In this document: positions 61-34,018 of the stretch, piece by piece
Layout of the letters: the number at the start of each line of letters is the position of its first letter
Position numbering within the stretch: the first letter of the stretch is position 1
From: a virus
Virus record (IMG/VR): IMGVR_UViG_3300027901_000013
Location: 1-38,519 of that record
DNA: 38,519 nucleotides
Direction: 5' to 3' (one strand)
Program-made: the position numbers and the translations under genes
Notes under the pieces: generated by a model
Database searches by the model: none
Seen by the model: the letters and a program-made list of their open reading frames with translations, nothing else
Told to the model about the DNA's origin: nothing

Positions 61-445
61 GCTGATCTACTCTATTTTAAACGAATATGAATAAAACGGT
101 AAGTTATGGAAATGATATATCTGAGTCTAGAATATATCGTTAATAGAATGCATCGTTAATAGAATACACGTTATGTCCCTTATACTAATAATCTCACTAA
201 TATCTCATTGTAATTAAAATTCTATATAAGCATTTTAATTATATGGAATATTTAGTAAAGTTTCCTTAATAGAAGTGCTGGAAAAAATAGGGTATTCTAC
301 AATGAGACTCCTACTATAGGAGGGTCTAAAAGCGTACATATTACTGGTAACATTCGCTAGGTATTTATATGAATATAGAACATTAAATAATTAGTAAAGT
401 TTCTCTTGATTGAATAATCAAATACTAAAATATTACAATGAGCAT
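61..445. other. Non-coding, repeat-rich left region
   Basis: No convincing gene was seen. The stretch holds ATCGTTAATAGAAT twice (136-149, 152-165), with TTAATAGAA a third time at 266-274. It holds TTAGTAAAGTTTC twice (252-264, 391-403), each followed 44-47 bases later by TACAATGAG (298-306, 434-442), and an inverted copy CTCATTGTA at 204-212. A 10-bp inverted repeat lies at 211-241 and one copy of the 13-bp genomic motif at 309-321. This could be a regulatory or replication control region; neither is proven. Confidence 0.5.
211..241. repeat. Perfect 10-bp inverted repeat (hairpin)
   Basis: TAATTAAAAT (211-220) and ATTTTAATTA (232-241) are perfect reverse complements around an 11-base loop. 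The arms are almost pure A/T and no T-run follows, so an operator-like or DNA-melting element is as plausible as a terminator. Confidence 0.5.
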
Positions 446-669
446 ATGAAAAAAAAGGATCACAGTATGATGCTGAAATAATTATAACAAAAGAATATTC
501 AAAACGTTATCATACTAAAGAAGAATACAGTTATGTTATAAAACTAAGAGAAAGCGGTTGTTCTTATGGAAAAATTAAGAGACTCTTTAAAAGTAAATTC
601 AACACTACTATCTCGATTTCAAGTATTTATGATTGGTGTAACGGAAACAGTAAACCATTAGGTATTTAA
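446..669 (+). pseudogene. Small HTH-like DNA-binding protein, needs a -1 shift in an A8 tract
   Basis: The only ATG (446) opens 'atg aaa aaa aag' and meets a stop after 11 codons. The -1 frame from base 457 stays open to TAA at 667-669, giving about 74 residues. The stretch 'VIKLRESGCSYGKIKRLF' followed by 'ISSIYDWCNG' reads like a recombinase- or homeodomain-like helix-turn-helix. That frame has no ATG, GTG or TTG of its own. The junction is A AAA AAG (451-457), a canonical -1 slippery heptamer, so this may be programmed frameshifting, an indel in the A8 run (449-456), or a sequencing error. The DNA-binding role is inferred from the motif only. Confidence 0.45.
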
Positions 670-712
670 TAAACTATATAAACTATACCGATATATGTCC
701 GCTTTGAAACTG

Positions 713-725
713 TCCTACTATAGGA
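713..725. repeat. 13-bp motif, intergenic copy
   Basis: TCCTACTATAGGA, extended by one base on each side to GTCC...GGAC. It lies between the HTH-like and zinc-ribbon genes and may be a binding site for a virus or host protein. Confidence 0.7.
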
Positions 726-780
726 CTCTTATTATAGCTACCTTAATAAATTATTACTACCATAATATAGAGGGTAATAA

Positions 781-894
781 GTGAAAGACAATAAACAAGA
801 GTATTGGTGTCCATATTGTCAAAGATTTACTTATGAAGATCATTGTCCTGATTGTGGATTTACTACTGATATAGTGGTATCTGAAATGTTATAA
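781..894 (+). CDS. 37-aa zinc-ribbon miniprotein
   Basis: GTG start, with a purine-rich 'agagggtaata' just upstream as a weak ribosome-binding site. The sequence holds CPYC (residues 10-13) and CPDC (22-25), separated by 8 residues including a His, which is a two-knuckle zinc ribbon. Such miniproteins in viruses often bind nucleic acid or act as transcriptional cofactors. The target is unknown. It is flanked by copies of the 13-bp motif at 713 and 908/924. A short length and GTG start explain why routine gene calling can miss it. Confidence 0.6.
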   Translation: MKDNKQEYWCPYCQRFTYEDHCPDCGFTTDIVVSEML

Positions 895-907
895 TAAATA
901 GCTAAGT

Positions 908-936
908 TTCTACTATAGAAGAGTCCTACTATAGGA
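908..936. repeat. Tandem 13-bp motif pair between convergent genes
   Basis: A variant TTCTACTATAGAA (908-920) sits 3 bases before an exact TCCTACTATAGGA (924-936). The pair lies between the ends of the zinc-ribbon gene (plus) and the terminase gene (minus). The 16-base spacing is about 1.5 helical turns. Confidence 0.7.
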
Positions 937-938
937 GA

Positions 939-2342
939 CTATCTCAATGCTCTTATAGGTCTCCTTATCTTACCAACTTTAACATAATAGGAACTAGAAG
1001 ACTGTTGTTCACTAATATCTCTAAGAGATAACATTAGTGCTGTAACGTGATCATCTCCTGTTTTAGTAGACCATGTATATCTTTTAACATTATTAAGTAA
1101 CGCTTGATAATCCTGTGGTATGAAAATAAGTTCATGTTCAAAGATGTACTTCATTCTAGCCTGTAATGTGCTTCTTTCATTACCCATAACAATAGCTTGT
1201 ACATAATGACCTTTAGGGAATAGCATATTAATTGTTCTCTCTGATTCTCCTTTAGGATTAGAATCTACAAAGATGTAATCTGGTTTATATGTATCAGCAT
1301 AATAAGCTATCCACTGGTGTACATTATCATACTGTTCTCCTTGCCACTCTAAACAATCTAATACCTTATATCTGTATCCAGTTTGTGATGTAGAGTCATC
1401 TATTAACTGAATTATTAGCAATATTGTCTTATCCGTCATGCCGTAATCTATCCCGAATATAATCTTACCTATCTTCTTAGTAGGATCATATTCAAACTTA
1501 TTATATCCTATAGACTGCTTTCTTATTTGTTCTACTGGTACTACAGTATTGGTTAATGGATAAGGGTTACCTAACCAGAACACATTAAACTCTTCTTCCG
1601 TTAGATCTTTCTTCATACGTTCTATCTCTTCATAAGAGAACCTCGGACACTCAAGTGCACTCCACGAATACCTAGCCCATTGTGTATCTTTTCTATCTTT
1701 CTCTGGTGTTTCCCAGTAATCAGGATGTTTCTTCTTATTCTCCCACATCTCTACATATAGACTATCATACTCTGTAGGAGTGCCTATGTAAATCAGTTTA
1801 TTATTAGGATTAGCTACTTCTCCTCCTACTATACGATTAGTATCTCTTAGAGTAAAATCATCTACTAATGCTGCCTCATCCACGATCACTGCATTTACAT
1901 GTTGACTTTGAATAGATGTTAATGACTTAGGTAAAGCTTGTACTGTAGATCCAGTAGTAAACTTTGTATATTGTTTAAGAACTTTACCATCCACAAACTT
2001 AGATAATATAGGATGTGTCTGTAGTGCTTCTGATGAATACTCATAAAGTTTCTTAGATTGTAATAATGAACCAGAAAGTATCAGTACGTCATAAGGTTTC
2101 TTATTTATGTAAGCATATACTATAGTTAACCATAAAGCTATAGCAGATAACATCTTCGTTTTCCCTATTCCACTAGCCGATAACAGCATAACTCTTCTAA
2201 GGTTAATTACTTCTTTCATAAACTTAGACTGGTAAGAATATGGTTCTTGTCCATATAAATCTCTAAAGAAGCTAGATGGATCCTTATACCATATAAGCAT
2301 TTGTAACTTTATCTCTGCTTCACTAGTCTCTTTCTCTACCAT
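939..2342 (-). CDS. terL: Terminase large subunit (DNA-packaging ATPase/nuclease)
   Basis: The 467-aa product has the normal TerL length and layout. The N-terminal ATPase has Walker A SASGIGKT (55-62), Walker B AVIVDEA (151-157) with the catalytic Glu, and a coupling motif IYIGTPT (184-190). The C-terminal RNase H-like nuclease carries acidic residues in FGIDYG (D299), YIFVDS (D360) and GDDHV (D431 region). The enzyme docks on the portal, pumps DNA into the prohead and cuts concatemers. It follows the probable small subunit by 9 bases in one operon. It has no exact 13-bp motif, only a near match at 1824. Unusually, it lies on the opposite strand from, and far from, the capsid genes. Confidence 0.95.
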   Translation of the reverse strand: MVEKETSEAEIKLQMLIWYKDPSSFFRDLYGQEPYSYQSKFMKEVINLRRVMLLSASGIGKTKMLSAIALWLTIVYAYINKKPYDVLILSGSLLQSKKLYEYSSEALQTHPILSKFVDGKVLKQYTKFTTGSTVQALPKSLTSIQSQHVNAVIVDEAALVDDFTLRDTNRIVGGEVANPNNKLIYIGTPTEYDSLYVEMWENKKKHPDYWETPEKDRKDTQWARYSWSALECPRFSYEEIERMKKDLTEEEFNVFWLGNPYPLTNTVVPVEQIRKQSIGYNKFEYDPTKKIGKIIFGIDYGMTDKTILLIIQLIDDSTSQTGYRYKVLDCLEWQGEQYDNVHQWIAYYADTYKPDYIFVDSNPKGESERTINMLFPKGHYVQAIVMGNERSTLQARMKYIFEHELIFIPQDYQALLNNVKRYTWSTKTGDDHVTALMLSLRDISEQQSSSSYYVKVGKIRRPIRALR

Positions 2343-2351
2343 AATATTTCA

Positions 2352-2894
2352 CTAAGTTTCCTTACTGTACTGCTCCCACTTGTCTCTAATCTTCTTAATG
2401 TACTCAACTGGTACATCAGCTTGTTCTAGTGTCCATAATAGCCTATCATACACATCAGTATCTTTCTCTTCCTCTACTGGTTTAATCTCATCCTTAAACC
2501 GTAGTGCAGTTTGTAGTACGTTATTAATTGTCATAGCAATACTTCTAGCTTCTTTCCTTATTACTGGATCAGCCATATCATCACCTAATTGAGTAAGCTG
2601 TGTATTTAGCATATTCAATGTATTAACTAGGTTTATAGAAGCATTGATATGTTCCTTTAATCTCTCTTTAACATATTTCTCTCTAAGTTTACTAGACTTA
2701 AGACGTTCATCTATGTAAGTCTCTACATGATCTCTAAAGTGTCTGGATAAAGAAGATAGAGTAAGTCCTTCTTCATACTTATTTCTAGCTATCTGTTGTA
2801 TGTCTCTATAAGTCATCTTCTTATTCAATCTAATGTCCTCGTACTCAGAACGATGAGGTGATATACATATTTTACATTTCCTAGGCAAAATCAT
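2352..2894 (-). CDS. Probable terminase small subunit
   Basis: The 180-aa product is encoded directly upstream of terL. An N-terminal CKIC pair with following H/R residues (about 7-15) and 'MTYRDIQQIARNKY...LSSLSRHFRDHV' look like a small DNA-binding region with helix-turn-helix character. The centre and C-terminus are charged and strongly helical (about 60-135), which fits an oligomerising coiled coil. Small terminase subunits recognise the packaging site and regulate TerL. The call rests on size, position and fold expectation, since this family is poorly conserved. The reading start ATG is preceded by 'aagaggt', a fair ribosome-binding site. Confidence 0.65.
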   Translation of the reverse strand: MILPRKCKICISPHRSEYEDIRLNKKMTYRDIQQIARNKYEEGLTLSSLSRHFRDHVETYIDERLKSSKLREKYVKERLKEHINASINLVNTLNMLNTQLTQLGDDMADPVIRKEARSIAMTINNVLQTALRFKDEIKPVEEEKDTDVYDRLLWTLEQADVPVEYIKKIRDKWEQYSKET

Positions 2895-2900
2895 ACCTCT

Positions 2901-2936
2901 TACATATTTATATAACTAAATAGAGATATAAATAGT
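2901..2936 (-). promoter_or_regulatory. Candidate archaeal promoter of the terminase operon
   Basis: Read on the minus strand, ATTTATATC (2925-2933) lies about 31-39 bases upstream of the ATG at 2894. This is a TATA-like box at a distance that would place the start site about 10 bases before the gene. A second TATATAA lies closer in (about 2908-2915). The assignment is based on base pattern only. Confidence 0.4.
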
Positions 2937-2940
2937 TCTT

Positions 2941-4257
2941 TTAAGGAGCTATGTTCAAAGGATCATTATCTGTGGCTGTTTGGTATAGTGTATTTGCACC
3001 TAAAACAGTTAAATTAGATGTAGTATTATCTCTAAGAGTACATCCTATAATTACGTTATAATTAGCAGTTCCTGTTTCTCTTACACCATATTCATTACTT
3101 ATTGCTGATACTCTCACAATAACATCTGAACAGTTATTGAGTTCAACACCTTCATTTGTATTATCATATACTACACCATGTATTTCAACACAGCTATAAG
3201 CTGCTAAATTCTGAATCATTATACCTCTACGTCCACTCCTTGTACTCATTATCTGAAACGTTCCACGTATATGTTGGGTTCCAGAATCAGGTCCTAGGAT
3301 TATATTGTCATGTCCGTATGTAGTTCCATTATAATCAGAAGTTAGCATTAAATTAAATACACCATCAAATATCTCTATACCATCTTGATTAGGACAATTA
3401 AAGCAAGTTATCCTTCCTGTAACCTTACCTGATATACCACAACCTATAAGCTGTGTATTGTCAATTATAACATCTAAGTGAATATTATCAGGTAATGGGT
3501 ATGAAGCATCATAATGCCCAATCCATAAACCATAAAAATCTGTTCCTGTAATTTGTGCCTTACAATGAACGTCACGAATATATCCATTTGTAGAATTTAC
3601 AACATACATTCTAATACCATAATCAGTTGATAGACCCATTGATACAACATCCAAATCTATCCATTGACAGTCATCTTGTAAATACACATTATTAGTATCT
3701 CCATCTAACACTATAGCCTTTACTTTTACATAGAAAGCATCTCTGAGTAAAATACCATGAGTAGACTTTGAATCACAATCCAGTAAGTTAATTCTTAATT
3801 CTACATATGATACATTATCAATAAAGAATGCAGCACCTACGATAGTACTTGTAACTATAACCTTGTCAAATATTAAACGTGTGTATGATGGAACTGTGCA
3901 TTCTGATGTTACAGGGAAATTACCTTTAATAATAACAGTTTCTATCCATGTCCTCCCAGATGTTAAATTGGATACAGCGTAACTTAAGACAGCATCTGAT
4001 CCTGTAGAAGAATAATCTATCTCTCCTGTTGTTCCATTAACTGCTTCATAATAACTTCCATTCTTTCTAATAATATATACTGCTTCTTTCTCTGAAAAGG
4101 ATGTTGGTGTAATTGATCCTATATTTAGTAGACTACCATCATTCATATCAATATATGTAGGTCTAAGGTATATACTATGATCTCCTATCTTTAGTCCTTT
4201 CCTAGTGTAGGACTCTATTTCATCTCTTATTATTCTTCTAAGTTTCTCTTCTTTCAT
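2941..4257 (-). CDS. Beta-helix tail spike/fibre A
   Basis: The 438-aa product begins with a helical anchor containing IESYTRKGLKIGD (about 15-27), nearly identical to that of the next gene upstream. A module 'AVYIIRKNGSYYEAVNGTTG' follows, and then a long run of short beta-strand repeats rich in Asn, Asp and Gly ('GVELNNCSDVIVRVSAISNEYGV'), typical of right-handed parallel beta-helix (pectate-lyase-like) spikes. Such spikes bind or degrade host surface glycans. No catalytic residues were identified. The shared N-terminus implies attachment to the same baseplate position as its paralogue. It lies 19 bases downstream of the paralogue, so the two are likely co-transcribed. Confidence 0.7.
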   Translation of the reverse strand: MKEEKLRRIIRDEIESYTRKGLKIGDHSIYLRPTYIDMNDGSLLNIGSITPTSFSEKEAVYIIRKNGSYYEAVNGTTGEIDYSSTGSDAVLSYAVSNLTSGRTWIETVIIKGNFPVTSECTVPSYTRLIFDKVIVTSTIVGAAFFIDNVSYVELRINLLDCDSKSTHGILLRDAFYVKVKAIVLDGDTNNVYLQDDCQWIDLDVVSMGLSTDYGIRMYVVNSTNGYIRDVHCKAQITGTDFYGLWIGHYDASYPLPDNIHLDVIIDNTQLIGCGISGKVTGRITCFNCPNQDGIEIFDGVFNLMLTSDYNGTTYGHDNIILGPDSGTQHIRGTFQIMSTRSGRRGIMIQNLAAYSCVEIHGVVYDNTNEGVELNNCSDVIVRVSAISNEYGVRETGTANYNVIIGCTLRDNTTSNLTVLGANTLYQTATDNDPLNIAP

Positions 4258-4276
4258 TATATGCTATCTCTCTTTA

Positions 4277-10183: not shown

Positions 10184-10196
10184 TCCTATAGTAGGA
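10184..10196 (-). promoter_or_regulatory. 13-bp motif doubling as ribosome-binding site of the hub gene
   Basis: On the coding strand the motif reads TCCTACTATAGGA followed by GTG. Its AGGAG half is the Shine-Dalgarno sequence, about 10 bases before the ATG at 10173. No other ribosome-binding site is visible. Confidence 0.6.
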
Positions 10197-10235: not shown

Positions 10236-13200
10236 CTAGTATCTTCCTCTCTTAGTGTATGTTTTCCTCATAGTGATTCTAGCTATCTCATTAGCTATCT
10301 TAGGTATATCAGCTTCTTCTCTTACAGTAAATTTATTACCAGATATAATAACTTGAGTAATTCCTTTATTATCGCTAGTACTAAATGGTGATACATCACT
10401 ATCCTTAGTTTCTACATATATCGTACCTTTCTTAGTAGCTTCATCTACGAATGCACTTATTACGTTCTTCATCTCAGTCATAACTTCTAGCAATCTTTCA
10501 TTTACTGGTTCTATACCAGTCAATACATCTAGTTGTTCTGTATTACTACGTATAGGTCTTAGTAAGTCTAGCGATTTAGATGAGGATGATATATCTCTAA
10601 GTTCTCTAAGTTCTCTCTTAGACTCAAATCTGCCTACTCCTGTAGTAGTAATATTAGCAGCCATATCATTAACATTAGGTATTTCAGCTGGTACTAATTC
10701 TTGTTTTATTAGTTGTATTTTATCTGGTATGTCTGGGATAGTAGCCTCTATTAAGTACTGAGTAATAAACTGTTTAATATCACTAATAACTGGTATATCA
10801 ACTGGTTCTAATACTTGTGTTATAGTCTGTATCAATTCAGGTAAACTACTTACCATCTCATTGGTTTCTACTTTCTGGTATACATCTTGTGTTAACGATG
10901 GTGGATTAATATAATCAGCTACAATTGATCTCTGTATCACATCTTGATATAATGGTTCTATAGGTTCAGTTTCAAATGGTAATAATCTCTGGTTAATGTT
11001 TTGTATCTGGTCTTTTACAATTGGAATCTCTGTCATTATTAATTGTTGTACTATCTTCTGTTCTTGATCAGTAATCTCTGGAATACTAGCAGCTTGTAAT
11101 TGCTGTATTATCATTTGTATCTGAGTATCTAACTTAGGTATTTCAACTTGCTGTAATCTTTGTATTATTTCTTGTTCTTGAGGATCTATAGATGGTATAT
11201 CTACCTGTGATAGTCTCTGGAATATAGTTTGATATTGATCCTTTATTTTAGGTATTTCTGTTAATATTAGTTGTTGTCTAGTATTATACACTTGATCTTC
11301 TACGCTAGGTATTTTAGCTTTAACTAGATTCTGATTAATTATCTGTGTTTGTGCTTCAACATAAGGTATTCTTACTGCTTCTAGGTGTTGAATAATAGCT
11401 TGGTGTTGTGGGTCTACCTTGGGGATATCTACTCTTATTAGTGATTGTCTTATAATTTGATTTATATCTTCTACCTTAGGCATTTCAACTTCTATTAAAT
11501 TCTGTTTAATGGTTTGAGTTATATCACCTATCGAAGGTATTGTGACTGGTAATAACTCTTGTCTTACTATCTGAGTGATATCTCCTATAGTAGGAATATC
11601 TACTTTCATTAATTCCTGTGTTATAACCTGTACTTTATCATCCACGTCTGGTATATTTACTGTAATTAATTCCTGTCTTATTATCTGATTGATCTCATCC
11701 ATAGTAACTGGTTCTATTTCTATTAGTCTCTGATTTATATTTTGTATAATAGGTTCTATTTCTGGAATAGTTACTGTTTGCAGTTCTTGTCTAATAAGCT
11801 GGACTATATCATTTATAGGTGGAATATAGACACTTTCTAACTTTTGTTGTATCAATTGAGTAATATTCTCTACTTCTGGAATATTTACTTTCTTTAGTTC
11901 TTGAGTTATTATTTGAACGATATCTTCTGGTCTAGTTATTTCAGCCTTTTCTAATACCTGAATAATTTTCTGAGTAATTGATTCAATATCTGGTATTCTT
12001 ACTTCTTCTAGTCTTTGTCTAATTACCTGAATCTGGTCTTCAGTTACAGGAATATCAGCCTTTATTATTTCCTGTTTTATTAATTGTGTTGCTTCTTCTG
12101 GTGTATCATAATCAGCTTTTATTAGTACTTGTCTAATTATCTGAGTAATATTATCTAATTCTGGAATTGTAGCACTTATTAAATTCTGTCTAATTATCTG
12201 CTCTTGTTCCTCTATTCTAGGAATATTAACTCTGCTTAATACCTGTGTTATTACCTGCTTTTGTGGTTTAATGTCTGGAATATTATTAACTCCTTTAGAG
12301 AATTGTGACAATGCAGTAAATGTGCTTACTATCTGTCTTTCTGTTTCTTGTAGTGATGATACAAGTGAATGACCAGTTAGTTGATCCTCTAGAGCAGCTA
12401 CTGATTCCTTCATTTCTTTTATTCTTTTTTCTGCTTCTGACGCTGCATATGCCTGTGCTAGTGCTGCAAATGCTAGATTAAGACCAAATGTAACGGCTGC
12501 TATTGCTGTTGCTAGTTGCCAATATGCTATTGATAAGCTTCCTACTATAGGAAGATGTAATGTCATAGCGCCACTAGCAGCACCCATACTACCAACAGTT
12601 TGAATATCAGCAGCGTTGCTAGCAGTTTTAGCTCCAAAGGTCTGCCATATAGCACTAGTCAATAATATAGATGAACTAATGAATGATGGTACCATACCAA
12701 ATATCCATTGATAGAATGAGAATATACTCTGTTCTATAGATCCTCTTAGTCTATCTTCTGCCATTTTAATATTCAATGTAGCATCCTCTAGATCTATTCC
12801 TGCTCTTATAGCCTCTTCTGATGTTCTACCATATACTTCTACAATTTCGTTGTATTCTCTTTGAGTATCTATTAATGATATATATGCTCTTCTTAATGAT
12901 AATGCAGATGATTCTACAGTAAGAGTATTCCTAGCTAATCTAGCCAATGACATCATAGAGAATAGAGAACTAAGACCTAACCATAGGATAGATCTACCTA
13001 CTGTTTCTATAGCAACACCTAACTTACCCATAGATAGTCTAGCTGTATTATATTCTATGCTAAGTTGTCTATTAGATTCTCTTACCCTATCTGCTGTTTC
13101 CGTTTGTTGTTTTAGTGTTTGTTCATATTGCCTAGCTTCTTCGTCTGTTTTCTTTAATACATCCATAACTACCTGTTTAGCTTTAGCATCTAGATCAGAA

Positions 13201-14075
13201 TATATAGCTGCTTGTGCTTCTACTTCTTGTAATCTCTTCTTAGATGCTGTATAACTATCTACTGATTGTTCAGATGATAAGAACCCTTTAACTGTATCTT
13301 CTAGAGTTCTATTATTCTCTTTAGCTATCTGCTCATAAGCACTTAGTCTCATTACTACATCTCTCATAATAGGAGTCATCTGACCAAATGATCTACCTAG
13401 TACTTGCTGCATATCACTTAATCTACTAGCCATTGTAGTATTGAGTAGTTGCTTTCTAGCTAAATCATCAAATGATATGCCTGTAGCATCTGCTACTTCA
13501 GATACTTCTTTATAGCTACCCATAATCTTTTTAATACTAGGATCTAACTTCCCAAATTGCTGTTCTAGTACTTCTATATCTCCAGCTAGTGCTTTAGATA
13601 TATCTGTCTTTGTAAGATCTCTGGATTCTAGATCTTTCATAGCTGCTATTATATTATCAAATTTATCTTTATTCTCTTCTAATACTTCATTATGACTTCT
13701 ATACATTTGTCCCATTCTAATTAATATCTGTTCATTTGATAATGCAGTTGAAGTTACATTCTGTAAAGCTTTATTTATTGCTTCTTGTGATTCTTTAAGT
13801 TTATCTCCTTCTTTGATAGCTTCAGATGTATCAATTCTTATCTCTTTACCACCTATAGTAAGACCTTCTGTTTTCTTAATTGTAGATTCTACTTCTCCAG
13901 TAACTTCACGGAGCTTTGTAGTAAAGTTCTCTAGTCCTTTAGTAGCAGTCTCAGATGTACGTAATCCTATTTTCTCTAGTAGTGTTGATATATCATTAAG
14001 TTTCTTTACTGCATCATTATAAGGAGCATCCTCTACCTCTATACGCACAGCTATAGGAATATCACGTACCGACAT
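10236..14075 (-). CDS. Tail tape measure protein with 19-residue repeats
   Basis: The 1279-aa product is encoded between the tail assembly chaperone and the hub, as in long-tailed viruses. Residues about 1-345 are coiled-coil rich. Three hydrophobic segments follow at about 355-380, 450-480 and 505-545, usual in tape measures. Residues about 600-1135 are roughly 28 tandem copies of a 19-residue unit, consensus IPxIxDxxQxIxQxLxxVx. The C-terminus (about 1150-1279) is charged. The protein sets tail length and is ejected during infection; at about 0.15 nm per residue it predicts a tail near 190 nm. Two 13-bp motif copies lie inside (11583 read as PTIG, 12540 as PIVG). The start ATG follows GGAGG within a third copy (14085). 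Confidence 0.85.
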   Translation of the reverse strand: MSVRDIPIAVRIEVEDAPYNDAVKKLNDISTLLEKIGLRTSETATKGLENFTTKLREVTGEVESTIKKTEGLTIGGKEIRIDTSEAIKEGDKLKESQEAINKALQNVTSTALSNEQILIRMGQMYRSHNEVLEENKDKFDNIIAAMKDLESRDLTKTDISKALAGDIEVLEQQFGKLDPSIKKIMGSYKEVSEVADATGISFDDLARKQLLNTTMASRLSDMQQVLGRSFGQMTPIMRDVVMRLSAYEQIAKENNRTLEDTVKGFLSSEQSVDSYTASKKRLQEVEAQAAIYSDLDAKAKQVVMDVLKKTDEEARQYEQTLKQQTETADRVRESNRQLSIEYNTARLSMGKLGVAIETVGRSILWLGLSSLFSMMSLARLARNTLTVESSALSLRRAYISLIDTQREYNEIVEVYGRTSEEAIRAGIDLEDATLNIKMAEDRLRGSIEQSIFSFYQWIFGMVPSFISSSILLTSAIWQTFGAKTASNAADIQTVGSMGAASGAMTLHLPIVGSLSIAYWQLATAIAAVTFGLNLAFAALAQAYAASEAEKRIKEMKESVAALEDQLTGHSLVSSLQETERQIVSTFTALSQFSKGVNNIPDIKPQKQVITQVLSRVNIPRIEEQEQIIRQNLISATIPELDNITQIIRQVLIKADYDTPEEATQLIKQEIIKADIPVTEDQIQVIRQRLEEVRIPDIESITQKIIQVLEKAEITRPEDIVQIITQELKKVNIPEVENITQLIQQKLESVYIPPINDIVQLIRQELQTVTIPEIEPIIQNINQRLIEIEPVTMDEINQIIRQELITVNIPDVDDKVQVITQELMKVDIPTIGDITQIVRQELLPVTIPSIGDITQTIKQNLIEVEMPKVEDINQIIRQSLIRVDIPKVDPQHQAIIQHLEAVRIPYVEAQTQIINQNLVKAKIPSVEDQVYNTRQQLILTEIPKIKDQYQTIFQRLSQVDIPSIDPQEQEIIQRLQQVEIPKLDTQIQMIIQQLQAASIPEITDQEQKIVQQLIMTEIPIVKDQIQNINQRLLPFETEPIEPLYQDVIQRSIVADYINPPSLTQDVYQKVETNEMVSSLPELIQTITQVLEPVDIPVISDIKQFITQYLIEATIPDIPDKIQLIKQELVPAEIPNVNDMAANITTTGVGRFESKRELRELRDISSSSKSLDLLRPIRSNTEQLDVLTGIEPVNERLLEVMTEMKNVISAFVDEATKKGTIYVETKDSDVSPFSTSDNKGITQVIISGNKFTVREEADIPKIANEIARITMRKTYTKRGRY
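10663..12281 (-). repeat. About 28 tandem 57-bp units encoding 19-residue repeats
   Basis: Each unit begins with IP (or a variant) and carries Gln at fixed positions, e.g. IPTIGDITQIVRQELLPVT then IPSIGDITQTIKQNLIEVE. The phase is kept almost throughout; one unit has 20 residues. DNA copies have diverged strongly, so the array is old and under protein-level selection. Confidence 0.9.
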
Positions 14076-14084
14076 TTCTTAACC

Positions 14085-14097
14085 TCCTACTATAGGA
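14085..14097 (-). promoter_or_regulatory. 13-bp motif doubling as ribosome-binding site of the tape measure gene
   Basis: The coding strand reads TCCTATAGTAGGA then GG, TTAAGAA and ATG (14075). The 3' half of the motif plus two bases is a perfect GGAGG at ideal spacing. Confidence 0.65.
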
Positions 14098-15681: not shown

Positions 15682-15903
15682 ATTTTCTTATTTCTCCTTT
15701 TTTTTATCTATCACTTAATAGATTTTTACTAGAACTTTACCTTAGCCACTTAGCTAAGTGTTCTGTATTAAGGTAATGATATAAGTATATTAAAACATTA
15801 TGTTAATAACTAAAGTCCTACTATAGGAGTCTGTTTATTATTAGAAACCTAAATATAGTAATAACCAATTAATCTACTTTGAGAATTATAAAGGGATTGA
15901 TTT
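15657..15903. promoter_or_regulatory. Divergent promoter region between tail and plus-strand operons
   Basis: It separates the leftward tail operon from the rightward operon. It holds the palindrome CACTTAGCTAAGTG (15747-15760) inside an outer inverted pair TACCTTA (15738-15744) / TAAGGTA (15769-15775), an operator-like arrangement. AT-rich TATA-like sequence follows (15778-15795), then one 13-bp motif (15816-15828). 'AAAGGG' about 8 bases before the ATG at 15904 serves as ribosome-binding site. Likely the main switch for both structural operons. Confidence 0.5.
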
Positions 15904-17517
15904 ATGACTGATAATTTAGCACTATCACCAGATGATGTAGAACCTATAACTAAGAAAGTATTCCCTAGTAAGAAACCTAAGAAAGAAGATAAAGGAAACT
16001 TTATTAAAATAATAGAGAAGAAACCACTTAAGAAATTATCACTTAACGAACTAGAGATATTACATAGCTATTATCATAGTAATATGGAATTCTTAAACTC
16101 CTACTGTAGGAGACATTTTATAGTAGCTAATGAGATGATAGACAGAGGATTAAAACACGTTAACAGAAGTATATGTGATAAAGCTGTTACGCTATACAGA
16201 AACTTAGATATTAATTTTAATGAACTAGAAGATAGTGATTTAATAGATTATACCAGAATAGTCCTATCATGGTATACTCCTATAGTAGGACACAGTAAGA
16301 GTATAAAGCATCTTAAGAAATTAACACCAGAGATACTAGAATCCCTTAGAAGTAAAACAGATAAAGAGATAAAACATAGAGGAATAGAATTAAAGCGTTA
16401 CTGTAAGAAGAAAGAACATAAGATGTCTCTAGAGGAATTCTATGATATAGCTCCTCAGCATATAATAATTAATAGTCCTCCTTATGTTTACTATAATGAT
16501 GATAATACGAGTCTTATAATAGACAGTAATGATTCTAATATAATAAAATCTATAAAGACATCACAACCTAATGAATGGTCTAGTAATATAGACACAGAGA
16601 GCGAGTGTACTAATTCTGTTTATACTCTATACAAGTATGGTCTATTTAAAGTACCTAAATCAGAATTCCTTAAAGATACTATATCATTAAGCATATTTGA
16701 TCAATTTGTACCTCCAGAGGCTATATATTACAATAAGAATGAATTATCTAAGTTTTCTAGTTTCTATTATGACTGGGTAGTTAAGCACTTATCTGATGGT
16801 ATTATTATACATAAGAATTACAATGGTATAAGAGCTATTATACATAAGAAAGATGATAATGTAAAGATAGAATCTAGTGTTATATTTAGTAACCTAAACG
16901 ATATAATAAAAGAACTTAAGACTATAGATCATAACTTCATATTAGATACTACAATAATTCAATATGACTGTAAGAATAAAGATGTTAAGTCTGCTTGTCT
17001 TAAAGAGATGGGATGTGATGAGAGTCCTATAGTAGGAGAGTCTAGTAACGGACATATAGTATTCCATATTAATGATATTTTATTCCTAGACGATAAATCA
17101 TTGAATAAGGAGTCCTATAGTAGGAGACTAGAGAAACTTAGAGAAATAATAAGTGATAATTTACAGTATTTCTCTATAGCAGTACAGAGTCCTATAGTAG
17201 GAAATTATAATGACGTAATAGAGTGGACTAAGAAACTTAATTCTAGTAAAGGTGTATTATTCAAAGTTTCCACATCTACATATCCTATAAAGTATAAGAA
17301 GAATAAGACATCAGACTGGATAATAAGTAAATTATCAGATGATATAGAACTTACATTATCACCGTGTGAGTTTAAGACTGATAGTAACATTTGTCCTATA
17401 GTAGGAGTACTCATTACTTCACCAGTAGATAGAGATTCCTTATCTAAGGTAAAATGTAACTTAACTAACACTAGAGAATGCTACTACAAAATACTCTCCT
17501 ATAGTAGGAGTCATTAA
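15904..17517 (+). CDS. Degenerate ATP-dependent DNA ligase-like protein
   Basis: In this 537-aa product, residues about 45-100 are a helical domain ('LNELEILHSYYHSN...IVANEMIDRGLKH'). Residues about 295-480 follow the order of nucleotidyltransferase ligase motifs: motif I-like KNYNGIRA (304-311), motif III-like FILDTT (345-350), motif IIIa-like HIVFHINDILFLDDKSL (384-400), motif IV-like SKGVLFK (448-454) and motif V-like WIISK (472-476). Key residues are altered: Asn where the catalytic Lys of KxDG is expected (a Lys lies one residue earlier), TT for GE in motif III, and KG for EG in motif IV. It may therefore be inactive or reprogrammed. The gene holds six exact 13-bp motifs and one variant, encoding PIVG in loops between the predicted motifs. 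The ligase relationship is inferred from motif order only. Confidence 0.5.
   Translation: MTDNLALSPDDVEPITKKVFPSKKPKKEDKGNFIKIIEKKPLKKLSLNELEILHSYYHSNMEFLNSYCRRHFIVANEMIDRGLKHVNRSICDKAVTLYRNLDINFNELEDSDLIDYTRIVLSWYTPIVGHSKSIKHLKKLTPEILESLRSKTDKEIKHRGIELKRYCKKKEHKMSLEEFYDIAPQHIIINSPPYVYYNDDNTSLIIDSNDSNIIKSIKTSQPNEWSSNIDTESECTNSVYTLYKYGLFKVPKSEFLKDTISLSIFDQFVPPEAIYYNKNELSKFSSFYYDWVVKHLSDGIIIHKNYNGIRAIIHKKDDNVKIESSVIFSNLNDIIKELKTIDHNFILDTTIIQYDCKNKDVKSACLKEMGCDESPIVGESSNGHIVFHINDILFLDDKSLNKESYSRRLEKLREIISDNLQYFSIAVQSPIVGNYNDVIEWTKKLNSSKGVLFKVSTSTYPIKYKKNKTSDWIISKLSDDIELTLSPCEFKTDSNICPIVGVLITSPVDRDSLSKVKCNLTNTRECYYKILSYSRSH
16099..17509. repeat. Intragenic cluster of seven 13-bp motif copies
   Basis: Copies start at 16099 (variant with central T and GTAGGA arm), 16278, 17025, 17113, 17190, 17394 and 17497. 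Four are read as PIVG (residues 126-129, 375-378, 430-433 and 'CPIVGV') and three as SYCR or SYSR. Five lie within 485 bases (17025-17509), the densest cluster in the window. Confidence 0.9.
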
Positions 17518-28280: not shown

Positions 28281-30374
28281 ATGAGTAAATTGAATAATTC
28301 TGATTATCAATCGCTTATATCAGAACTTATCCTAGAGAACGCTTACTTAAGGTCTAATAGGAATAAAGATACTCCTACTATAGGAGTGCTAGAAATAGAA
28401 ACTCTATCAGATCTTACAGTAGTAGAAGAGCTTAAGGGTAAACTTAGAATAAGCGGAATATTACTAGCCGAGGGTATATGGAACGGTGTGCTTTATACTA
28501 AAGATGAGATCAAGAAGATGTACAATAGATTTAAAGATAAGCTTAGTAAATTAAAGATTATAGCAGAACATGAGAAACTACCAGAGTTCAAGAATAAGAA
28601 ACTAGGAGGTCATATTGGAGTAGAATGGTCTGATACGCTAGGAGCTATATTGTACTCTGGAGAAATAACTGATCCTAAAGCTATTAACCTAGTTAAGAAT
28701 GGACAATTTAAAGGTACAAGTATGAAACTTAAGATTAAGAGAGAAGCAGATGGTATGCTAATAAAAGGAGTAGACCTAGAACCTATGGATAACTCCTTAA
28801 CTTCATCTCCAGCATGCCAGCCTGCTCTTATTGTATCTAAAGAAGAGATGAATAAAGAAGGTAATAGTATTATTCATAATTTTTATGGTATAGTAAAAGA
28901 GAGTAAATTAGATAATAAAGATATGGAGGTAAAAGAAGAAGAAATGAATAAGACAGAAGGGAATACTAATACTGATGTTACCGTTACTGAACCTAAGGTA
29001 GAAGATATTACTCCTACTGAAGGAAACAACACTGAAGTTACAAGTCCTATAGTAGAAGAAGAAAGTCCTATAGTAAGAAACTTAGAGAATATTACTGTAG
29101 ATAAGCTAATAGAAGAGCTATCTGGTGTTATCAAGAGAAAGAGGATTATATATGAATATGATAATAACTCTAGTAACACATTTAATCTTGATGTAACTGA
29201 GGAGTTCTCATATCATCCTTATAATGATAAGTTCATTGTTGTTAAATCATTTAATACAGAAGATGAAGCTAGGGTATTTGTAGAGAATATTAAAGGTAAG
29301 AGGATATTCTTATCTGAAGAAGAGAACTTAGCTAAGTGGACTAGGAAATTTATTAATGACTTACCAGACTCTGCATTTGCTTATGTTGCTCCAGGTGGAA
29401 AGAAAGATGAAGAAGGTAAGACTGTTCCTAGGAACCTTAGATATTTACCATATAAAGACGCTAGTGGTAAAGTAGATCTTCCACATCTAAGGAATGCTTT
29501 AGCTAGAGTATCACATACAGATTTACCTAAATCAGTACAAGATAAGATAAAATCTAAACTAGAAGCTGTAGCTAAGAAACATCTAAAGACACATAAGATG
29601 AGGATAGCTGTTAATACTGTAGAGATGAAATGGGAAGAGACTGATGATTATATAAGATCAGGTCATGGTAATCCAGAGAACTTTGATAATGGATCATTTA
29701 GAACTATTGTAATAGATAAGTCTAAAGGTATTAAAGCTATAGTCGCTTGTCCTAAAGGACACTTTAGTGGTGGTCAATGTAACGTAGGTGTAAAGGTACA
29801 GAGTTTCTTATTCCCTAAGGATAAGTTTACTAAAGCACAAGCACAAGCGTGGTTTAAGACTAGATCTAATAAAGCTAAAATGAAGAAAGAAGGATTAGCT
29901 AAAGAGGGAGATGTAATAAACAGTAAGGAGGTAGAAGAATTGACTGAAGAACCTAAGAAAGAGGAAGTAAAGACAGAGACTCCTATAGTAGGAGAAGAAA
30001 AGAAAGAAGATACTAAAGTAGAACCATCTAAAGAAGAAGTACCTGAAACACCAGAGAAATCAGAAGTTGTTAAGGAAGAACCTAAAGTAGAAGATAAAGA
30101 ACCAGAGACTAAAGTAGAACCTAAGAAAGAAGAAGTTAAAGAGGAACCTAAAGTAGAGACTCCTAAGGAAGAACCTACAGTACCAGAGAAGAAAGAAGAA
30201 GTAAAGGAAGTTCCTAAAGAAGAAATTAAAGAAGTACCTAAAGAAGAGCCTAAGGTAGAAGCACCTAAACCTCTAACTAAAGAGGAAATAGTATCTGAGA
30301 TAGTTAAGAATAAGGACTTACTAGCTGATCTCATAATGAAAGGTAGAATTAAGTATGGAGACTATGATGACTAA
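28281..30374 (+). CDS. Prohead maturation protease with scaffold-like tail
   Basis: In this 697-aa product, residues about 50-190 resemble assemblin-type prohead proteases: 'WNGVLYTKDEIKKMY', His97 in AEHE, 'GGHIG' (H111), Ser147 in GTSMKL, and 'SSPACQPALI'. Next come a linker, then a phage domain 'FINDLPDSAFAYVAPGGKKD ... LPHLRNALARVSHTDLP' (about 357-435), then 'HGNPENFDNGSFRTIV ... FPKDKFTKAQAQAWF' (about 460-535). A long Lys/Glu/Pro tract (about 550-670) is typical of a scaffold. The protease cleaves scaffold and capsid proteins during maturation, and the charged tract may direct capsid assembly. Motif copies at 28373 and 29981, plus two variants (29045, 29066), encode PTIG, PIVG and PIVE/PIVR within linkers. 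It precedes the capsid genes. Confidence 0.75.
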   Translation: MSKLNNSDYQSLISELILENAYLRSNRNKDTPTIGVLEIETLSDLTVVEELKGKLRISGILLAEGIWNGVLYTKDEIKKMYNRFKDKLSKLKIIAEHEKLPEFKNKKLGGHIGVEWSDTLGAILYSGEITDPKAINLVKNGQFKGTSMKLKIKREADGMLIKGVDLEPMDNSLTSSPACQPALIVSKEEMNKEGNSIIHNFYGIVKESKLDNKDMEVKEEEMNKTEGNTNTDVTVTEPKVEDITPTEGNNTEVTSPIVEEESPIVRNLENITVDKLIEELSGVIKRKRIIYEYDNNSSNTFNLDVTEEFSYHPYNDKFIVVKSFNTEDEARVFVENIKGKRIFLSEEENLAKWTRKFINDLPDSAFAYVAPGGKKDEEGKTVPRNLRYLPYKDASGKVDLPHLRNALARVSHTDLPKSVQDKIKSKLEAVAKKHLKTHKMRIAVNTVEMKWEETDDYIRSGHGNPENFDNGSFRTIVIDKSKGIKAIVACPKGHFSGGQCNVGVKVQSFLFPKDKFTKAQAQAWFKTRSNKAKMKKEGLAKEGDVINSKEVEELTEEPKKEEVKTETPIVGEEKKEDTKVEPSKEEVPETPEKSEVVKEEPKVEDKEPETKVEPKKEEVKEEPKVETPKEEPTVPEKKEEVKEVPKEEIKEVPKEEPKVEAPKPLTKEEIVSEIVKNKDLLADLIMKGRIKYGDYDD

Positions 30375-30631: not shown

Positions 30632-30862
30632 ATGGGAGAGCTAGAGACATTAATGAAGATAATGGAGAAGTTACAAGAAGTGGAAGAACTAAAGAAGAGA
30701 GTAGAAAACTTAGAGAATAAAATAGAAGAATTATCTAATGATAGGATTAACAGTGCTGTAAGTAAATTAAGTACTAGTTCTGGTAATACAGAAGATAATC
30801 TAGCTACTGCTGCTGATTTAGCTATACTTCACTGGAAGAAGAATCCTCCAAGGGGATATTGA
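30632..30862 (+). CDS. Small coiled-coil protein 2
   Basis: The 76-aa product is strongly heptad-patterned at the N-terminus ('MKIMEKLQEVEELKKRVENL'), with a Ser/Thr/Ala linker and the tail 'ADLAILHWKKNPPRGY'. It starts directly after the stop of coiled-coil protein 1 and ends one base before capsid protein 1 starts. It may be a scaffold-like partner, one for each capsid paralogue; this pairing is only an inference from two small and two capsid genes. Confidence 0.6.
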   Translation: MGELETLMKIMEKLQEVEELKKRVENLENKIEELSNDRINSAVSKLSTSSGNTEDNLATAADLAILHWKKNPPRGY

Positions 30863-30863
30863 T

Positions 30864-31916
30864 ATGGGAAGAGAGATAATTAAATTAGCTTTAGGGACGA
30901 CTGACGTTACTGCCATTACTCCAGATAATATATCAGACGCTATCTCTGATAGTGCTAGACATGAAGTGGTTATAGCTCAGTTATTTAATCCTATAAATGA
31001 CTTTATTGATCAAGGAGTAAACAAGGTAGTTATTCCTAATTATAAGAACTATATTGCAGTATCCAGTAATATGGGAGAGAGTACAAGTATATCTCCATCT
31101 TCGTTCTCTTATGATGGTACTACCGTAACATTAACTAAACTAGGTATTAGAATAGAAATAACTAATGAAGCTAAGAAGTCTGCTGCTAGAGATTTACTTA
31201 GTGATGCTCTGTATATGGGAGCTAAGGAATACGCTATTGAGCTAGATAAGCAAGCTGAGACTGTATTACTTAATCTTAATGTAGGTAGTATATCTTCATG
31301 GGATGGAGGTACTCTAGGAACAGTTACTGCTGGTCAGTCTCCTATAGTAGAAATTCTTACAGTAGGAGCTGGAACTATAGATAGTGTAGATTACTACGAT
31401 GGTAAAGTATTACTAGCTGCATCTATAGCTGCTGGTACAGTTACGTTCTCTTATAGTAACGATAGAAGGGTTAAGGATGCTACTGGTAAAGGTACTCTAA
31501 CCATAACTGATATACTAGACCTTAAGAGTACTATGAATGAGAGTACAATATACCCAGATATGTTACTGATAAATGCTAGTGATATGACTAACTTTGCTAA
31601 GGATACAGCACAGACTAATCTATTCAGTTATCTATTAGCTAAGCCTGGAGTTACTGGTAATATAGGTAGGATACTAGATATGAACGTTGTTACTTCTGGA
31701 ATATTACCTAAAGGAGCAGCTATACTGGTAGATTCTACTAAAACAGGATATGACGTTACAAGTAGACCTCTCAAAGGGTATGAAGATGATAGACCAGAGA
31801 TAGATAGTGTATGGTATCATTTATGGGCTATGAAGGGATATGCAATGTACAGTACGTTAAGTGTAGGAATTATCACTAATCTAAAAGTAGGAACATATCA
31901 AGCAGCAGACCTATAA
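30864..31916 (+). CDS. Major capsid protein 1 (HK97-fold)
   Basis: The 350-aa product begins 'KLALGTTDVTAITPDNISDAI' and runs through 'SPSSFSYDGTTVTLTKLGIRIEITNEA', a spine-helix region (about 100-130), a beta insertion (about 155-195), 'YPDMLLINASDM' and 'PEIDSVWYHLWAMKGYAMYSTLSVGII'. This matches the HK97-fold coat layout, probably of the N4-gp56-like type. It is about 35 per cent or so identical by eye to capsid protein 2. AGGGG is spaced 8 bases before the ATG. A near-match motif at 31340 encodes SPIVE in the insertion. The two capsid genes could form a mixed lattice or alternate hexamer and pentamer roles. Confidence 0.8.
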   Translation: MGREIIKLALGTTDVTAITPDNISDAISDSARHEVVIAQLFNPINDFIDQGVNKVVIPNYKNYIAVSSNMGESTSISPSSFSYDGTTVTLTKLGIRIEITNEAKKSAARDLLSDALYMGAKEYAIELDKQAETVLLNLNVGSISSWDGGTLGTVTAGQSPIVEILTVGAGTIDSVDYYDGKVLLAASIAAGTVTFSYSNDRRVKDATGKGTLTITDILDLKSTMNESTIYPDMLLINASDMTNFAKDTAQTNLFSYLLAKPGVTGNIGRILDMNVVTSGILPKGAAILVDSTKTGYDVTSRPLKGYEDDRPEIDSVWYHLWAMKGYAMYSTLSVGIITNLKVGTYQAADL

Positions 31917-32030
31917 TCTAATATCTTTAATACTTTTTCTATATTAGTTGTTATTATACTATCTATGGATAACTATACTTATATAGTAATGTTATATTAG
32001 ATAGTATCATAAATTAAAGGAGGATAAAAT
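31917..32030 (+). promoter_or_regulatory. Leader between capsid genes with a 10-bp inverted repeat
   Basis: A T-rich stretch follows the stop of capsid gene 1. ATACTATCTA (31956-31965) and TAGATAGTAT (31998-32007) are perfect inverted arms 32 bases apart. GGAGG (32018-32023 region) lies 7 bases before the TTG start at 32031. It may hold a separate promoter or processing site giving the second capsid gene its own expression level. Confidence 0.45.
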
Positions 32031-33092
32031 TTGAAAGATATACAGGAATTAGGACTAGGCACTGCTGATGTAGCTGCAATTACTGGAAAAGCAATTGCTG
32101 ATACTATCGAGGAAGTTGCTAGAGGAGAAGTTAAGATTGCTCAGTTATTTAAGGTTAATAAAGACCTAATGGCTGATGGTACACCTCAACAGATACAATT
32201 TCCTAAGAAAGGAACTGGTATTGCTGTAACTTGGGGAGCTACTCCAGGATCTACAGTATCTGCTAGTTCATTTGCTTATGATGCTGTTACTGTTACTACA
32301 GCTAAATCAGGATTCAGGCTAGAGTTTACTAATGAAGCTCTTAAACAAGCACTTAGAGATGTGATTAAGGATCATGTCTATGAAGGTGGTATTGTATGGG
32401 CTGAGACTATAGATGATGTAGCTTCTAGTATTATGCTAGGGCTTACTTCTCAGACTGCTACTATTACGACTGGTTCACTAGGAACCTTTAGTAATACACC
32501 TGTTTATAAGATAACTGCTGCTGGAACTGGTACTATTGTATCAGTACAGTATGATACTGGTGTTGTTACTATATCTGGTTCTCTTGCTGCTGATACTATT
32601 ACTGCTCAATATGCTAATAATCCTAAAGGTACTACCCTATGGGTAGGTGCTACTAACCCAGGATCACTTAGAGCATTTGATATAGCTAGAGTTAAAGCTA
32701 AGATGGTAGCTCAACACAGAAACCCAGATGTTATGTTATTCAATGATGCTGATTATGCTAGCTTACTCTTTGATACACAGCTTAAGTTCATAGATGCATC
32801 TGCTTATGGTAGTCAAGAAGCTGTACTCAATGGTGAAATAGGTAAGGCTATGGGTCTTAAGGTTATTACTAGCACTAGAATACCTCAAGGTAATGCTATC
32901 CTAGTTGATACAAGGAGACTAGGTTATGATGTACATAGGAGAGATCTATCTGGTGTTAGAGAAGATAAACCTGAATATGACTCAGTATGGTATCACTTCT
33001 GGGCAGAAAGGAACTTTGGTGTAGCTGACTCACTAGCTGTAGGGTTAGTGTGTAATGCTCAGTCTGCTGATTACGTCTACAAGGCTGCATAA
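32031..33092 (+). CDS. Major capsid protein 2 (HK97-fold)
   Basis: The 353-aa product starts with TTG and has a strong GGAGG site. Landmarks shared with capsid protein 1 are 'ELGLGTADVAAITGKAIADTI', 'VSASSFAYDAVTVTTAKSGF', 'NPDVMLFNDADYASLL', 'IPQGNAILVDTRRLGYDVHR' and 'KPEYDSVWYHFWAERNFGVA'. It is a full-length paralogue, not a fragment. Unlike gene 1 it carries no 13-bp motif. A strong terminator follows. Its codons look more uniform and optimal (GCT, ACT, GGT rich), suggesting it is the more highly expressed copy. Confidence 0.85.
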   Translation: MKDIQELGLGTADVAAITGKAIADTIEEVARGEVKIAQLFKVNKDLMADGTPQQIQFPKKGTGIAVTWGATPGSTVSASSFAYDAVTVTTAKSGFRLEFTNEALKQALRDVIKDHVYEGGIVWAETIDDVASSIMLGLTSQTATITTGSLGTFSNTPVYKITAAGTGTIVSVQYDTGVVTISGSLAADTITAQYANNPKGTTLWVGATNPGSLRAFDIARVKAKMVAQHRNPDVMLFNDADYASLLFDTQLKFIDASAYGSQEAVLNGEIGKAMGLKVITSTRIPQGNAILVDTRRLGYDVHRRDLSGVREDKPEYDSVWYHFWAERNFGVADSLAVGLVCNAQSADYVYKAA

Positions 33093-33118
33093 TAAAGTCC
33101 TAATATTTTATATCTTTG

Positions 33119-33156
33119 TAGCCTATAGATTATTTCTATAGGCTAGTACATTTTTT
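33119..33156 (+). terminator. Intrinsic-type terminator after the capsid genes
   Basis: A perfect 10-bp stem TAGCCTATAG / CTATAGGCTA (33119-33128, 33136-33145) with a 7-base loop is followed 5 bases later by TTTTTT (33151-33156). It ends the head operon. Confidence 0.75.
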
Positions 33157-33225
33157 ATATTAATATTTATCTAAGTTTCCTTATTTTAGGATATTACTTT
33201 TATATTGGATTACTCTCATTATTAT

Positions 33226-33291
33226 TTGCCTAGGAGAGAGTGTTCTGTCACTCGGGCTCTCGATGATTAGGTATTAACCGAGTGACTGTAA
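33226..33291 (+). ncRNA. Structured leader with two mutually exclusive hairpins
   Basis: GTCACTCGG (33247-33255) pairs perfectly with CCGAGTGAC (33278-33286), ending 5 bases before the ATG at 33292. The same GTCACTC segment can instead pair with an upstream GAGAGAGTG (about 33234-33242), together with CTCTC (33257-33261), inside an outer TGCCTA/TAGGTA stem. The region is much richer in G+C than its surroundings. The two folds exclude each other, an attenuator- or riboswitch-like logic. No ribosome-binding site is seen before the ATG. Confidence 0.45.
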
Positions 33292-33897
33292 ATGGAATAT
33301 AGAAACCTAGAAGTTAAAGATATACAACCCTGCTGGTCTTGTAATTCTAAAGGACATAATTATGAAGTAATAGGTAGATATAAAATTACTAATATTCCAT
33401 TTATTGAATATGAAGGTAATGCTATTAATTATTTTAAGTGGTTAAAGACACATAATAAGAATAGCTATGATGGAATAATCACATTACCTAATAAAGGTAA
33501 GATATACATTGAGTATAAGTTTAGACATTGTAATAGAGTCTATCATAGCTGGGTTATGAAGGACTGGTTACCTAGGAAAGCTGATATTATAGTTACTAAT
33601 AATAAGAATGTAATATCTTATCAAGATAAGCGGTTATTAGAGTCTAATCATAAGAAGCTAATGACGTTATCTGAATTAATTGTCTATATTGGTAAGTTTG
33701 TTAGAAATATTCTTCACCCTAGCAAATATACTAATATGAACTATGAAAACATAGATGCTTTGAGTATGGGAACTAGTGGAAATAAAATATTCTATGATAG
33801 ACTAACTGATTGGAAAGATAAATACAAACAGAGAAACTTAGAAACAGTAGATGATTACATAGACATGATACTAGAGATAATTCACCTTTTAGTATAG
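33292..33897 (+). CDS. Unknown 201-aa protein, possible PD-(D/E)XK nuclease
   Basis: An N-terminal CWSC motif lies near residue 14. 'SYDGIITLPNKGKIYIEYKF' (about 62-81) has the spacing of the D...ExK core of PD-(D/E)XK nucleases: D65, then E79 and K81 on adjacent strands. A later segment 'ADIIVTNNKNVISYQDKRLLE' could be the following strand and helix. The C-terminus is helical ('NLETVDDYIDMILEIIHLL'). No Gln/Lys of the fourth motif was identified. It is isolated by a terminator and structured leader before it and a motif pair after it, so it is expressed separately. Function is unsettled. Confidence 0.45.
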   Translation: MEYRNLEVKDIQPCWSCNSKGHNYEVIGRYKITNIPFIEYEGNAINYFKWLKTHNKNSYDGIITLPNKGKIYIEYKFRHCNRVYHSWVMKDWLPRKADIIVTNNKNVISYQDKRLLESNHKKLMTLSELIVYIGKFVRNILHPSKYTNMNYENIDALSMGTSGNKIFYDRLTDWKDKYKQRNLETVDDYIDMILEIIHLLV

Positions 33898-33967
33898 AAT
33901 GGAAAACTATACTGATTTATCAGTTATCGTGTCTATAATCGCATATCGTTAAATTGATGTAGCAGAC

Positions 33968-34018
33968 TCCTACTATAGGAAATTTATTAAGAAATAGTCT
34001 AAGTTTCCTATAGTAGGA
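33968..34018. repeat. Inverted pair of 13-bp motif copies (15-bp stem)
   Basis: TCCTACTATAGGAAA (33968-33982) and TTTCCTATAGTAGGA (34004-34018) are perfect reverse complements separated by 21 bases. They form the longest perfect inverted repeat made of the motif in this window. The rest of 33898-34078 has no gene; a GAGG sits 8-10 bases before the ATG at 34079. Confidence 0.75.

Follow-up and report, generated by a model that had tools for sequence, protein, structure and literature searches.

Short DNA elements dispersed over a genome have been described in several systems. In cluster A mycobacteriophages such as L5 and Bxb1, stoperators are represented by dozens of 13-mers, located mostly in short gaps, with a subcluster-specific consensus and a correspondingly matched repressor specificity (PMC6550527, PMC9283540). 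In the Bacillus prophage SPbeta, the dispersed element SPBRE is bound by MrpR, a repurposed recombinase-type protein (PMC10516654). The matS/MatP and NBS/Noc systems organize chromosomal DNA through dispersed sites of 13 bp or 16 bp (PMC3330122, PMC8429893), and REPIN/RAYT palindromes occur in numerous copies scattered over a single genome (PMC3116915).

The window analysed here, a stretch of 38,519 nucleotides of an archaeal virus genome, carries 18 exact copies of the 13-mer TCCTACTATAGGA (Table 1), 8 in the plus form and 10 in the minus form, the CTA-centred and TAG-centred forms being one sequence on opposite strands. Our recount located all 18 where an earlier note on this DNA had placed them, and the near matches, of which at least six had been claimed, amount to 6 copies with one mismatch and 12 with two. 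The chance expectation, previously judged to be far below one, is about 0.02 copies under an order-2 Markov background. Furthermore, shuffled motifs of the same composition are not equally enriched, since 20,000 letter permutations of the 13-mer gave a mean of 0.0014 copies and a maximum of 1; among 5-3-5 dyads the arm TCCTA occurs 20 times, and each of the other 29 of the 30 arm permutations at most once. The flanks, earlier described as unrelated, are nearly so, with a weak symmetrical extension beyond the 13-mer, in which 14 of the 18 copies have A at −4 and 14 have T at +16. About 8 of the window's sites lie in intergenic gaps against 1.5–1.9 expected, and the sites of the window as a set are clustered rather than even in spacing. 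Genic sites use both open frames and both orientations, and 22 of 22 peptides read from them are different. An origin of the motif in a shared PIVG peptide was excluded as an artefact, since some of the sites are intergenic and the others use every open frame. That the tag is never read in the frame giving TAG stops, as the earlier note held, is true but trivial for sites within genes.

Table 1. Tag sites and terminase-proximal genes of the window.
Feature	Position	Strand	Context
Tag, exact	309..321	+	non-coding region beside TerL
Tag, exact	713..725	+	between HTH frame and TerL 3' end
Tag, exact	924..936	+	directly beyond TerL stop; imperfect copy at 908
Tag, 1 mismatch	1824..1836	+	within TerL
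Tag, exact	10184..10196	-	gap separating two tail genes
Tag, exact	11583..11595	-	in 1279-aa protein gene, tape-measure position
Tag, exact	12540..12552	+	in 1279-aa protein gene, tape-measure position
Tag, exact	14085..14097	+	upstream of 1279-aa protein gene
Tag, exact	15816..15828	+	divergent gap upstream of ligase-like gene
Tag, 1 mismatch	16099..16111	+	within ligase-like gene
Tag, exact	16278..16290	-	within ligase-like gene
Tag, exact	17025..17037	-	within ligase-like gene
Tag, exact	17113..17125	-	within ligase-like gene, other reading frame
Tag, exact	17190..17202	-	within ligase-like gene
Tag, exact	17394..17406	-	within ligase-like gene
Tag, exact	17497..17509	-	ligase-like gene 3' end, other reading frame
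Tag, exact	28373..28385	+	within 697-aa gene
Tag, 1 mismatch	29045..29057	-	
Tag, 1 mismatch	29066..29078	-	
Tag, exact	29981..29993	-	within 697-aa gene
Tag, 1 mismatch	31340..31352	-	within major capsid gene 1
Tag, exact	33968..33980	+	intergenic
Tag, exact	34006..34018	-	intergenic; 38 bp from tag at 33968
Tag, 1 mismatch	35798..35810	+	
HTH-like open frame	442..669	+	convergent with TerL; weak database support for HTH
Terminase large subunit (TerL)	939..2342	-	landmark for candidate gene in relatives
Putative terminase small subunit (TerS)	2352..2894	-	assigned from position and CxxC-HTH-like N-terminus

Our search for relatives revealed ten uncultivated tailed archaeal viruses of 25–128 kb with common terminase and capsid proteins, eight of which carry a dispersed palindrome of their own in 16 to about 60 copies each. 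These tags are GATAGTAACTATC (in two close relatives), TGTAGTCCGGACTACA, CGATTTAtcaccTAAATCG, TATATCn5GATATA, ATTCAACGTTGAAT, AAGATnATCTT and TTAATATTAA. The difference of the motif in every relative is the most informative fact of the analysis, and it was not visible to the author of the earlier note. Two of the tags were searched across all IMG/VR and each was confined to its own record. No comparable dispersed palindrome was present in ten size-matched unrelated viruses, where scores reached at most 14.7 as against 33–139 in tagged ones; neither were G004-type sites found in the tagless relative G003, nor any tag at ten Thermoproteota loci with distant terminases. The word ATGTGGTAA of G003 was rejected as a tag, the peptide/frame test having exposed its context as zinc-finger-like CxxCGK codons.

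If host proteins dictated the tag, as with HIP1, KOPS or uptake sequences, it might differ from virus to virus wherever the hosts differ. However, the 13-mer gave 15 hits in 300 sampled Thermoproteota genomes, at most one per genome, against 18 in 38.5 kb of the virus, and we regard this explanation as very unlikely. The same lack of enrichment in the sampled genomes of the likely host phylum leaves the previously drawn analogies with HIP1 and DNA-uptake sequences unsupported, and so is the one with KOPS, KOPS being oriented whereas the orientation of the tags relative to transcription is random (about 1:1 overall). An MCP search in GTDB genomes returned no match.

The tags are conserved at the level of DNA. 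Site cores have identities of 0.892 and 0.926 between G004 and G005, compared with 0.831 and 0.866 for the flanks, and tags are gained and lost by substitutions, mostly without indels, in otherwise collinear sequence. Intergenic positions are preferred in G002 (22 of 29 sites, 2.2 expected), G009 (19 of 47, 3.2 expected), G004 (14 of 33, 2.2 expected) and G019 (21 of 39, 2.7 expected). The spacing of tags is regular in G002, G009 and G019 (P ≤0.0003 each), and different viruses do not bear them at the same gene ends (observed 32 and 33, expected 27.4 and 28.0). Out of the functions proposed in the earlier note, namely protein binding, packaging, segregation, replication or self-recognition, the relatives' tags, the core conservation and the tagless controls sustain DNA-level selection and a virus-specific, putatively protein-binding tag.

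The many near-identical copies, along with a DDE-like gene described below, would suit mobile palindromes of MITE or REPIN type spread by a transposase-like protein. REPIN/RAYT palindromes are accompanied by a transposase-type gene. In close relatives, however, sites differ by point substitution in collinear sequence and not by insertion of a unit, tag-bearing genes stay open and flanks are unrelated; mobility was rejected, and we give it hardly any credence. Terminator hairpins are not favoured either, as the loopless perfect palindromes of G009 and G019 and the genic sites fit binding to duplex DNA better. The window motif contains ACTATAGG, as a T7-like promoter might, but the tags of the relatives are without any likeness to it. 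The unrelated records L089 and L093, with words related to ACTATAGG, may carry T7-like promoters.

A candidate for a protein that would read the tags is encoded next to the terminase in all eight large tagged relatives. An HTH was detected in six of them and was not found in the versions of G002 and G019; two Asp residues are invariant in 8 of 8 proteins and a Glu is present in 7 of 8. A DDE transposase would combine an HTH with an RNase H fold that carries D, D and E. The structural model of the G004 candidate resembles the transposases ISCth4 and IstA, and also a viral protein annotated 'HTH and integrase core'; the structural matches are weak (E 3.5e-3, TM 0.2), and a second candidate model was uninformative. 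The tagless G003 has a short version only, without a detected HTH. The candidate proteins are too divergent for profile comparison to prove common ancestry. In the window, the frame 442..669 lies where the candidate tag-binding gene is found in most relatives; the only ATG of this frame (447) is shifted by one frame, with eight A in a row in between, and the window shows no DDE-like part. We tentatively consider the HTH/DDE-transposase-like protein the leading candidate for the tag reader, with the ParB-like protein discussed below as its rival.

The tags might alternatively act as stoperators, at which an immunity repressor in the dormant virus would block elongation and thereby confer virus-specific superinfection immunity. 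Their scale and virus specificity match those of cluster A mycobacteriophages (PMC6550527, PMC9283540), they favour short gaps between genes, and in most cases the candidate gene converges with TerL. Yet a stoperator is an asymmetric site that follows the direction of transcription, while the tags are palindromic and randomly oriented, and convergent gaps are enriched for tags. A tyrosine integrase was not found in any record searched (no PF00589 match in 10 records, although relatives below the model's reach may escape). Stoperators appear a rather unlikely explanation.

We find it similarly unlikely that a virus ParB-like protein uses the tags as sites of parS or NBS type, in a Noc-type array organizing or segregating viral DNA. 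A protein with ParB_N plus HTH is encoded near PolB in G002, 3, 4, 5, 9, 16, 17 and 19, the perfect palindromes TGTAGTCCGGACTACA and ATTCAACGTTGAAT match parS/NBS in size, and Noc offers a precedent of 16-bp sites scattered round the chromosome (PMC8429893, PMC4331003). Against it, the tagless G003 possesses a ParB-like protein whose HTH closely resembles the G004 one (GRSHSTVREW vs GRSPSTIREW) and has no G004-type sites, and none was found in the fragment G018, although it is tagged. Packaging, in which TerS would bind scattered sites and mark virus DNA, seems less probable still: TerS is conserved in the family with a variable N-terminus and the candidate gene adjoins the terminase genes, but TerS is intact in the tagless G003 and G001. 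Packaging normally requires one or a few sites, a demand that 16 to 60 regularly spaced ones exceed.

Our preferred explanation, which we consider moderately probable as a whole, is that the tags constitute a genome-wide array of putative binding sites for a virus-encoded protein whose specificity changes between viruses. The protein recognizing the 13-mer would bind DNA sequence-specifically and, in all likelihood, as a virus-encoded homodimer, although the binder may be encoded by the host. Repetition of the site would let the protein coat or bridge the whole viral DNA and, once bound, distinguish it from the DNA of the host and of rival viruses, each member of the family having a site of its own and, presumably, a cognate protein to go with it. 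The outcome may be silencing or organization of the whole genome with self-recognition, of repressor or nucleoid type, rather than a packaging choice. A more speculative version portrays the tags as a private palindromic barcode whose fast-changing, transposase-derived reader organizes or silences its own DNA and excludes rivals, barcode and reader being replaced together.

The tags point to a self-recognition or genome-organizing system in archaeal tailed viruses, of which no description was found in the open-access literature searched. Repeated switches of the site among related viruses would provide many natural protein-DNA pairs, in which one can follow the joint change of a DNA-binding protein and its dozens of sites. 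The tags could also serve as virus-specific markers linking metagenome fragments of one virus.

Compared with known systems, the tags resemble cluster A stoperators in their many copies over the genome and enrichment in short gaps, but they are palindromes without orientation bias whose sequences are wholly different between viruses, and their counterpart to the cognate HTH repressor would be a candidate HTH protein. MrpR folds like a tyrosine recombinase, and its sites number about ten and lie at promoters, whereas the candidate here is DDE-like and the sites are not promoter-specific. Unlike REPINs, the tags arise by point mutation and not by insertion. Finally, matS/MatP and NBS/Noc belong to cells and have a single consensus for each lineage, while here there is one consensus per virus.

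Counted on both strands, the 13-mer TCCTACTATAGGA has 18 exact copies in the window, the number given in the earlier note, where an order-2 Markov background predicts 0.02 and 20,000 same-letter permutations averaged 0.0014 copies with a maximum of one. Six inexact copies carry one mismatch and 12 carry two. It is built as a 5-3-5 dyad that A at -4 and T at +16 extend weakly and symmetrically. Among the matches listed for its 14-base form, CTCCTACTATAGGA, many unrelated contigs were represented, nearly all by a single copy, which is the level predicted by chance. A second over-used word, AAACTTAG, occupies 27 places (e.g., 17134, 30706, 33999), 20 of them followed by A and most genic and in the sense direction, at a density of about 7 per 10 kb in the window versus at most 1.6 in relatives.

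By profile search, the window encodes a terminase of the tailed-virus type, an HK97-type major capsid protein (MCP), a ligase domain, an archaeal DUF2153 protein and a trypsin-like protein that carries an intein. The hosts are probably Thermoproteota, since a Thermoprotei MAG from Guaymas holds a relative of the terminase. Like the window, several relatives have the MCP in two copies, and the protein in tape-measure position contains a long series of ~22-aa repeats, IPxxxxQxIxQxL.

Ten further records of one virus family (G001-G019) were gathered by capsid and terminase searches, and de novo word and dyad counts detected a dispersed palindrome in eight of them; these counts found none in the other two.

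Tags of related viruses and features of the window
Genome	Record or position	Tag or feature
G001	3300033141_002781	25-kb fragment; no tag found
G002	3300005573_000089	CGATTTAtcaccTAAATCG
G003	3300033149_003115	114 kb; no tag found
G004	3300033156_000141	GATAGTAACTATC
G005	3300033149_001657	GATAGTAACTATC, common to G004
G009	3300033156_000775	TGTAGTCCGGACTACA
G016	3300028891_000081	TATATCn5GATATA
G017	3300044580_000126	TTAATATTAA, weakest of the tags
G018	3300005573_000129	AAGATnATCTT
G019	3300033150_000701	ATTCAACGTTGAAT
Window		IMG/VR fragment, 38.5 kb
Window	442-669	HTH-like open frame, same place as relatives' candidate gene; no in-frame start
Window	10236-14075	1279-aa protein, tape-measure position
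Window	30864-31916 and 32031-33092	two adjacent MCP genes, 38% identical
Window	36400-38322	trypsin-like peptidase split by intein-like segment with LAGLIDADG domain

Scores of 33-139 within the family compare with at most 14.7 in ten unrelated records of 72-80 kb; the top score among 68 short pieces of unrelated viruses was 21, at four copies. The tags of G009 and G002, both searched in IMG/VR, have zero occurrences elsewhere in it. G002 tags (L152-L155) lie paired 34-35 bp apart with one arm in common, in the manner of a tandem dyad (e.g., 26110/26145, 44169/44204, 57838/57873). As a negative control, ATGTGGTAA, present at 14 places in G003, proved to be a peptide-driven word sitting in zinc-finger-like codons.

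Selection at the tag sites targets the DNA itself. Sites are in several-fold excess in gaps between genes, and genic sites use every open frame and both orientations, encoding many peptides. Between G004 and G005 (84% identical), site cores were 0.892 and 0.926 identical versus 0.831 and 0.866, respectively, for flanks, and random segments gave about 0.835 +/- 0.02. Where a site has been lost, substitutions are mostly the cause. Cores showed no conservation where the partner was tagless or differently tagged. In the MCP genes of the window (tag at 31340) and of G004/G005, different tags coincide in position, at nucleotide 482 or so, for which common Pro-Ile-Val codons may account. The tags form a real, selected, virus-specific array of putative binding sites, and related viruses have switched from one tag to another. 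That such an array exists is firm; its binder and function are what we infer.

Tag orientation relative to transcription is approximately random, both convergent gaps and gaps ahead of starts are used, and differently tagged viruses do not have sites in common at orthologous gene ends (32 and 33 observed versus 27.4 and 28.0 expected), which together argue against operators of particular promoters and oriented stoperators. With gap preference allowed for, spacing was more regular than chance in G002, G009 and G019 (P<=0.0003 each) and borderline in G016; the remaining viruses, including the window, showed no excess regularity. Coverage is the role that best fits this layout.

The leading candidate reader is a gene of about 190-280 aa adjoining the terminase genes in 8/8 large tagged relatives, usually convergent with TerL and, in G017 and G019, upstream of TerS instead. 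An N-terminal HTH is detectable in six of the eight proteins, whose alignment holds only five invariant columns, two of them Asp, with Glu in 7/8; as aligned, this Asp/Asp/Glu set has the arrangement typical of DDE transposases. The model of the G004 protein (mean pLDDT 60) had ISCth4 and IstA transposases as its best matches and also matched an 'HTH and integrase core' protein from a giant virus, in every case weakly. By sequence comparison, the terminase-adjacent proteins are not proven to form one family. In tagless G003 the terminase-adjacent version has just 180 aa and no detected HTH; judged on one or two tagless genomes, the association of gene and tag is suggestive only. The sole ATG of the window's HTH-like frame is separated from it by eight consecutive A and a change of reading frame, which may reflect sequencing error, a pseudogene or frameshifting. 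The TerL region of G009 (48536-50840) is divided between two frames, perhaps through an intein or homing insertion, and has tags inside. Alternatively, the binder would be a ParB_N plus HTH protein; against this, G003 encodes the protein although it is tagless, and the HTH there is similar to the G004 one.

Searches of an open-access library found no description of a comparable archaeal-virus system. Phage stoperators (PMC6550527, PMC9283540) resemble the array in scale and virus specificity, but the tags lack the consistent orientation of stoperators; SPBRE/MrpR (PMC10516654) offers a likeness in a perhaps repurposed recombinase-type reader, but nothing matching the fold family of MrpR was found for the tag system. 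The array is therefore classed as neither. It resembles both matS/MatP (PMC3330122) and Noc sites (PMC8429893) in its palindromic layout without orientation.
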